Assembly (NCBI GenBank): GCA_945862265.1
Contig: CAMAXP010000010.1
Coordinates: 1 to 64,000 of the forward strand
Length of the DNA: 64,000 nt
Direction: 5' to 3'
DNA from: Bordetella parapertussis
GTDB taxonomy: Bacteria; Pseudomonadota; Gammaproteobacteria; Burkholderiales; SG8-39
In this document: positions 27,319 to 29,229 of the stretch, one piece after another
Layout: each line of letters begins with the position of its first letter
How positions within the stretch are numbered: the stretch's first letter is position 1
Notes under the pieces: model-generated
What the model was told of the DNA's origin: nothing
Databases searched by the model: none
Seen by the model: the letters and a program-made list of their open reading frames with translations, nothing else
Translations under genes and position numbers: made by a program

Positions 27319-28227
27319 ATGAGCGTCATCGCCATCGTCGTCGCACTCCTGCTGGAGCAATGGCGGCCCCTCGTCGAGCGCAAGACCTACCACGCGTTGC
27401 TTGCGCGATGGGCCAACTGGCTCGAAGGCACCTTCAATGCGGGCGAGTCGCGCCACGGGCGGATTGCATGGGGTGTGGCTGCGGCACCCCTCGCGCTCGG
27501 ATCGCTTGTGCTCCATTACGTGTTGCTGTGGGCCCACCCGTTCCTCGCGCTCGCACTGAATGTCATTGCGCTCTATGTCACGCTCGGGTTCCGGCAGTTC
27601 AGCCACTCCTTCACCGGCATCCAGCTTGCGGTGAAGGCAGACGACCTGGATCTTGCACGGGAACTCATAGGCAAGTGGCGCGGCGAGGCCGCGGGGCATC
27701 GCACCAAGGAGGAAGTCGTGCGCCTCGCCGTCGAGGAAGCGCTTGTCGCCTCGCACAGGCACGTGTTCGCGGTGCTCTTCTGGTTCATGGTGATGCCGGG
27801 GCCCAGCGGCGCGATCCTCTATCGCCTGGCCGGATTCCTCGCGCGCCGATGGCAAGGGCAGGGAGCATTTGGGGCCTTCGCGGTGCGAGTCCACCAGTGG
27901 ATGGAGTGGCCCGCGGTACGGTTGACCGCAATAGTATTTGCCGTGGTTGGCGACTTCGAAGACGCCATCTACTGCTGGCGCACGCAGGCCATGACCTGGG
28001 CCGACCCGCGCATCGGCATCGTGCTTGCAGCGGGCGCCGGGGCGCTGGGCGTTCGGTTGGGCATGCCGCTCGCCTATCCCGATGGGACGGTCGAGTCGCG
28101 TACGGAACTGGGGCAGGGGGAGAGCGCGGACGCCTCTTTCCTGGACAGCACGGTCGGCTTGCTGTGGCGCTCGCTCGTCGTCTGGGTGTTCGTCCTTGCG
28201 GTGCTCAGCGTCGCGCGGGTCTTCTAG
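27319..28227 (+). CDS. CobD/CbiB-family membrane protein
   Basis: A 302-residue integral membrane protein of the CobD/CbiB (adenosylcobinamide-phosphate synthase) family, with about five hydrophobic segments and conserved pieces FRQFSHSFTGI, VVGDFEDAIYCW and FAVLFWFM. In Burkholderiales this paralogue is commonly found away from cobalamin genes, and none is nearby here, so a true cobamide role is uncertain. Its stop codon overlaps the stop of a converging gene remnant at 28224-28227. Confidence 0.8.
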   Translation: MSVIAIVVALLLEQWRPLVERKTYHALLARWANWLEGTFNAGESRHGRIAWGVAAAPLALGSLVLHYVLLWAHPFLALALNVIALYVTLGFRQFSHSFTGIQLAVKADDLDLARELIGKWRGEAAGHRTKEEVVRLAVEEALVASHRHVFAVLFWFMVMPGPSGAILYRLAGFLARRWQGQGAFGAFAVRVHQWMEWPAVRLTAIVFAVVGDFEDAIYCWRTQAMTWADPRIGIVLAAGAGALGVRLGMPLAYPDGTVESRTELGQGESADASFLDSTVGLLWRSLVVWVFVLAVLSVARVF

Positions 28228-28339
28228 GGGCGCGGTTCGTGCCCGCAGTTCCAGCACTGGGTGAACTGCGCCTCCTGGATCTCCCCGCAGCCGCAGTGCC
28301 AGAGTCAGGCAAGCTCGGCGAGGCGAATACGCGCTTCAT
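28224..28339 (-). pseudogene. Internally deleted remnant of a DUF2007-type zinc-ribbon gene
   Basis: On the reverse strand an ATG at 28339 overlaps the rsgA stop (ATGA) and reads MKRVFASPSLPD, like the start of DUF2007 proteins. A second frame beginning at about 28301 reads WHCGCGEIQEAQFTQCWNCG and runs to a stop at 28224; this is the zinc-ribbon tail seen at the C-terminus of the same kind of protein. The two pieces touch but lie in different frames, and the roughly 50-residue middle is missing. The simplest reading is an out-of-frame internal deletion of a gene that was coupled to rsgA. The protein can no longer be made as a unit. Confidence 0.58.
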
Positions 28340-29229
28340 CGCCGAGGGCCGGCCGATTCTTCGGACAGCACGATGCGCTGGTAGATCGCGAGGCGCCTCG
28401 CGTGGATTGCACCGGTTTCCGCTGCCTGCCGGAGGGCGCAGCCCGGCTCGTTCAGGTGGCGGCAGTTCTGGAACCGGCACTCGCCCCGGAAGGGGGTGAA
28501 TTCACGGAATCCCGCGGCGATGTTCAGGTAGTCCATGCCGGCCAGGCCGAACTCGGCCAGGCCGGGCGAATCGATGATCTCCGTCCCGGGTGATACCGGG
28601 TAGAGGCGGGAGCTGGTGGTCGTCTGCTTGCCTGCATCGAGGAAGGCGGAAATCTCGCGAATCTTTACTTCCGCATCGGGCACCAGTGCCTTTACCAGGG
28701 TCGATTTCCCCATGCCCGACTGTCCGGTGAGCAGGCTGCGGAACCCCTGCAGGTAGGGGCGCAGCGGCTCCACGTCGACCCGTCCGGCAATCTCGACCAG
28801 CGTGTAGCCCAGGCCCCGGAACGGGGCGAGCACGGCCATGGCACGCTCACGTTGCTCGACGAGGTCGAACTTGTTCAGCACGATGATCGAGGGCAGGCCG
28901 GCCTGCTCGGCCACCACGAGCATCCGGCAGATCAGTTCGTCGGAGAACGAGGGTTCGCAGGCGACCAGGATGACCACTTGCGTGAAATTTGCCGCGAGCA
29001 CCTTGCGGCGGTAGTGGACTGCGCGGGCGAACTCGGTGGCGCGTGGGGTGACCACTTCGATCACGCCCTGGTCGGCAGAACTGCGCGCCACCTCGACGCG
29101 GTCCCCGCAAACCGGTTGCATCTGGCGCCCGCGCACCTGGCAGCGCAGCAGCTCGCCATCATCGATCCGGGCGAGGCATTCGCGGCCGTACCCTGCCACT
29201 ACGGTGGCGTGGAGCAACGCTTCGCTCAC
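28336..29229 (-). CDS. rsgA: Ribosome small-subunit-dependent GTPase RsgA
   Basis: A 297-residue circularly permuted GTPase that assists late 30S maturation. An OB fold (about 1-70) is followed by GTPase motifs in permuted order: NKFD at 119-122 (G4), GQSGMGKS at 169-176 (G1) and DSPG at 220-223 (G3). The C-terminal zinc knuckle uses C251, C256, H258 and C264. Length is near normal. It is the third gene of a reverse-strand run after the M48 protease and the pterin dehydratase. The stop at 28336-28338 overlaps the start of the DUF2007 remnant. Confidence 0.93.
   Translation of the reverse strand: MSEALLHATVVAGYGRECLARIDDGELLRCQVRGRQMQPVCGDRVEVARSSADQGVIEVVTPRATEFARAVHYRRKVLAANFTQVVILVACEPSFSDELICRMLVVAEQAGLPSIIVLNKFDLVEQRERAMAVLAPFRGLGYTLVEIAGRVDVEPLRPYLQGFRSLLTGQSGMGKSTLVKALVPDAEVKIREISAFLDAGKQTTTSSRLYPVSPGTEIIDSPGLAEFGLAGMDYLNIAAGFREFTPFRGECRFQNCRHLNEPGCALRQAAETGAIHARRLAIYQRIVLSEESAGPRR

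Follow-up and report, generated by a model that had tools for sequence, protein, structure and literature searches.

The window, a stretch of 64,000 nucleotides, carries two pieces that resemble the ends of a DUF2007 gene (Pfam: PF09413). They lie on the minus strand from position 28339 down to 28224, between rsgA and a convergent cobD gene. All the genes around them, namely Nudix, CobD, RsgA, pterin dehydratase and M48 peptidase, are matched to their families and are intact. The features of the locus are given below, where G004, G002 and G003 are genomes of the same genus that carry the intact DUF2007 gene.

28336..29229, minus strand: intact rsgA gene for the small ribosomal subunit biogenesis GTPase, 297 aa (Pfam: PF03193, E 4.4e-44; TIGR00157 over cut-off)
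28304..28339, minus strand: head of the DUF2007 gene, 12 codons, MKRVFASPSLPD, aligning with the starts of the intact G004, G002 and G003 genes at the same ATGA/GTGA overlap
28302..28304, minus strand: putative deletion junction region, net 196 bases missing relative to G004
28224..28301, minus strand: tail of the DUF2007 gene, 25 codons with a four-cysteine (zinc-ribbon-like) end and the stop TAG, out of frame with the head and lacking a usual start codon (49.6 bits to the profile of the relatives; G004 protein match E 3.6e-10)
28205..28339, minus strand: present reading from the old start by translation, 44 codons, overlapping the 3' end of cobD in antisense orientation
27319..28227, plus strand: intact convergent gene of the CobD/CbiB family, 302 aa (Pfam: PF03186, E 3.2e-28; NF005792 over cut-off)

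The head begins with an ATG (28339-28337) overlapping the stop TGA of rsgA (28338-28336), and 10 of its 12 residues are identical to G004. After residue 12 the old frame continues into 32 residues unrelated to DUF2007 and stops at 28205. The tail, WHCGCGEIQEAQFTQCWNCGHEPRP followed by TAG, is found at 28301-28224 and begins at an offset of 38 from the ATG, so that its frame differs from that of the head. In the tail's own frame a TGA lies one codon ahead of its TGG, and no ATG, GTG or TTG was found inside the tail (28301-28224) in this frame. The C-terminal four-cysteine stretch is present, zinc-ribbon-like by sequence, with the cysteine pattern CGC...CWNC as compared to CGC...CWRC in G004. 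The 66 positions of the PF09413 domain are not found in one open frame in the window, where the core is missing.

The first cysteine pair of the tail (28287-28295), compared with the DUF2007 proteins of loci L049-L051, is CxC in this genus and CxxC, one residue longer, in loci L052 and L054. The stop of the remnant, TAG at 28226-28224, and the CobD stop, TAG at 28225-28227, share the palindrome CTAG. The convergent stops overlap in the same way beside the intact gene of G002 (locus L036) and lie apart in G004. The overlap had been pointed out in the initial annotation and is indeed there, yet it is not damage, and we rejected CTAG as a deletion scar because the intact G002 gene has it too.

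Our sample of the genus comprises five genomes, three of which (G004, G002 and G003) have DUF2007 between rsgA and cobD. These intact orthologues in the same slot are 101-103 aa long; their start codons overlap the rsgA stop (ATGA or GTGA) and their first residues are similar to the head, which bears out the proposal that the ATGA overlap in the window marks the original start. In G001, which belongs to the same genus, the stops of rsgA and cobD overlap and the searches yielded no DUF2007. The window's closest relative is G004, with 91% identity in RsgA and 86% in CobD; the two are sisters in the CobD tree with a support of 100/95. PF09413 hits the G004 protein with 54.1 bits and covers its residues 1-67. 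Head and tail align to both ends of the intact relatives' gene. Relative to G004, which serves as the reference for the net loss, the window is short of a net 196 bases at this place, which is one more than 65 codons and not a multiple of three. Missing are residues 13 to about 77 and hence most of the PF09413 domain. With this net loss, and with head and tail in different frames, the reading frame is destroyed. The initial annotation had described a head and a zinc-ribbon-like tail within 116 bases in different frames, and translation, profile score and the G004 alignment all agree with this; its view that the two are the ends of one DUF2007 protein whose core is gone fits the comparison with G004.

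We built a profile from five relatives, with the window excluded, and ran it on the tail, on 3990 six-frame chunks of the window and on 1000 shuffles of the gap. The tail scored 49.6 bits (50.5 in the window-wide run), the best score outside the tail was 8.2 bits and the best of the shuffles 7.8 bits. The head by itself scored only 1.4 bits; what speaks for it is its position at the rsgA stop, where the gene of the relatives starts too. Searching the window's own genome with the intact G004 protein found the remnant (E 3.6e-10), which was the only match. Furthermore, no PF09413 match over the cut-off of 25.7 bits was present in this 4.63 Mb assembly, which is 97.47% complete, the best match having 14.6 bits (E 0.158). 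A second copy elsewhere is thus rejected for the assembled part of the genome, and an intact copy is absent from the assembly, as expected for a pseudogene.

DUF2007 proteins are described in Pfam as 'Putative prokaryotic signal transducing protein' (PF09413). The G004 protein belongs with them by its domain match, whereas the window retains only 12 domain residues and a separate, out-of-frame cysteine-rich end. Structure prediction for the G004 protein (mean pLDDT 78.3, pTM 0.57, from five sequences) gives a beta-alpha-beta domain with a small cysteine-rich end behind it; the core elements, at residues 2-67, fall mostly inside the stretch missing from the window. With the G004 protein as query, the best PDB chain by sequence had E 0.21 and NCBIfam gave no match; Foldseek with the G004 model gave nothing at E 0.001 or better. 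A second fold comparison aligned the model to type III secretion ring proteins with Z up to 8.8, and to 2HFV (protein RPA1041), which we take to be a solved DUF2007 member, with Z 7.4 and rmsd 4.3 over 69 residues, below the ring proteins. We read these matches as the common ferredoxin-like arrangement, which points to no function. In the excerpts of the literature searched, DUF2007 appears as one name in lists of domains, and the literature searched had no mention of 'prokaryotic signal transducing protein' or of rsgA together with a pseudogene and gene loss.

Across the family, PF09413 was found over the cut-off in 74 of the 98 genomes. From these 98 genomes we inspected 69 cobD loci, 43 of which have rsgA facing cobD. 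An intact DUF2007 gene lies between the two genes in 25 of the 43 loci (gap of 243-553 bases); together with the three same-genus genomes in which both halves align, this is the outcome that the initial annotation had proposed to look for, a DUF2007 gene after rsgA in relatives. No intact gene was found in the other 18 (gap of -20 to 169 bases), among which the window is the only locus with recognisable remains (43.6 bits, E 7e-15). We looked for remains on the rsgA strand, in open stretches of at least 15 residues, over the interval that begins 60 bases ahead of the rsgA stop and extends 10 bases beyond that of cobD, and found none in the other 17 loci (0.2 bits or less, E 0.27 or worse). Over all 69 cobD loci, 42 scored at least 93 bits, 26 at most 2.7 bits and the window alone was intermediate. 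Two of the 18 genomes without the gene in the slot match DUF2007 elsewhere, G016 over and G029 under the cut-off.

The loci from genomes having DUF2007 were our own choice. Of the family genomes, 23 lack a PF09413 match at E 0.001; the 69 loci take in all 20 of them in which cobD was matched, but not G103, G111 and G115, in which it was not. No rsgA is visible at 26 of the 69 loci, partly because they are short pieces (e.g. G090, G091 and G071), and these were excluded from the 43. For these 26 loci, 'no DUF2007' means none within 1.3 kb of cobD; G005, G030, G008, G071 and G012 have DUF2007 farther away or elsewhere.

On the CobD tree of the 43 loci, presence and absence of the gene need at least 11 state changes, and well-supported branches force eight of these. 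There is hardly any clustering of the states: as few changes sufficed in 34-35 of 500 shuffles. With all 69 loci the tree gives 17 changes, though with faulty labels, owing to the 26 loci without visible rsgA. These trees count changes and not their direction, so that gain and loss are not told apart; the window's case is one of loss because both gene ends are present and the window sits among intact relatives.

The family also varies in rsgA itself. With the window's RsgA as query, 41 of the 98 family genomes, among them G011, G006, G036, G108, G005 and G012, stayed without a match at E 1e-10; some of the 41 are incomplete. We searched 18 of these 41 again with PF03193 and found none over the cut-off, in many genomes from 98 of the first-look candidates; all four relatives having rsgA that were searched in this way were matched. 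At loci L004, L015 and L017 DUF2007 stands immediately after the pterin dehydratase gene and before cobD, an arrangement that looks like a clean excision of rsgA.

The tail has changed little. Over the 20 codons compared with G004, 5 of 60 bases differ, among them 3 of 20 third positions; the third positions differing from G004 are 120 of 298 in rsgA and 120 of 300 in cobD. Such a small difference suggests that selection acted on the tail until recently, a weak dating by sequence comparison, given how short the stretch is and that intact relatives conserve it well too. With three relatives standing in for the ancestor, at most one base, by eye, is shared at the two ends of the missing stretch, which gives no support for a deletion between direct repeats; a repeat search of the window itself is uninformative on this point because one copy would be gone. 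The erosion of inactive genes by small deletions (deletional bias) is described as general in bacteria (PMC5447742). The window resembles such eroding pseudogenes in having an intact orthologue in close relatives, an internal deletion, a frameshift and other lineages without visible remains; it differs in that its remaining ends are little decayed, and otherwise in nothing notable.

We conclude, with a probability of about 0.92, that the DUF2007 remnant is a pseudogene made by internal deletion. In the ancestor, rsgA would have been followed by a DUF2007 gene that began at the rsgA stop codon and coded for a ferredoxin-like domain and a four-cysteine end, and cobD would have lain beyond it in convergent orientation. 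Residues 13 to about 77 would then have been lost by an internal deletion (196 bases net against G004), putting head and tail out of frame with each other. There was probably one such event, in which, to judge from the relatives as proxies for the ancestor, no long repeat took part, and the peptide now read from the old start presumably does nothing. The loss was probably tolerated as the gene is expendable, which we infer because it is missing from the slot in many other lineages of the family. Speaking for a pseudogene are the intact orthologues, the aligned ends, the frame break, the lack of another copy over the cut-off and the neighbour genes in frame. On the other side, the tail is hardly decayed, which may reflect a recent deletion but may also reflect an artefact or a tail still in use; moreover, the junction rests on one assembly and the head is too short to score alone.

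The organism might instead have an intact gene from which around 200 bases were dropped in assembly. Such an artefact would fit a genome in 105 contigs, an almost undecayed tail and a junction known from assembled sequence alone. However, the missing stretch in the intact relatives has no long repeat at its ends, by eye, to invite a collapse, the neighbour genes are in frame, the gene is at no other place in the assembly and the 17 other inspected genomes also have no gene in the slot; we therefore consider it quite improbable. Alternatively, the shortened gene could still work, with translation of the four-cysteine tail depending on frameshifting or on re-initiation downstream of rsgA. The tail has indeed kept its four cysteines and most of its sequence, but the in-frame TGA just ahead of the tail and the lack of any ATG, GTG or TTG within it speak against this. 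With no tail-only relative near cobD among the 69 loci either, as no other score was intermediate, we rejected a functional short or tail-only gene, for which the chances are very slim. That the pieces resemble DUF2007 by chance and the gene was never here is ruled out for practical purposes despite the 1.4 bits of the head, given that the tail reaches 49.6-50.5 bits while other places in the window stay at or below 8.2 and the shuffles at or below 7.8, and given the equal place, order and start overlap in three relatives.

As a pseudogene, the remnant is by itself of little consequence, being one more dead gene: the gene loss here is ordinary, apparently caught early in its decay. It is conceivable, though we consider it unlikely, that selection has repeatedly removed DUF2007 from between rsgA and cobD in this family of largely uncultured Betaproteobacteria, with the window as a loss that has just begun. 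If this were true, the lineages without DUF2007 would share a trait revealing its role. In any case, the locus shows that DUF2007, a domain of unknown function present in most of the family (74 of 98 genomes), can be lost. This genome and G004 form a closely matched pair which, in addition to other pairs with and without the gene, can be used for seeking the function of DUF2007.
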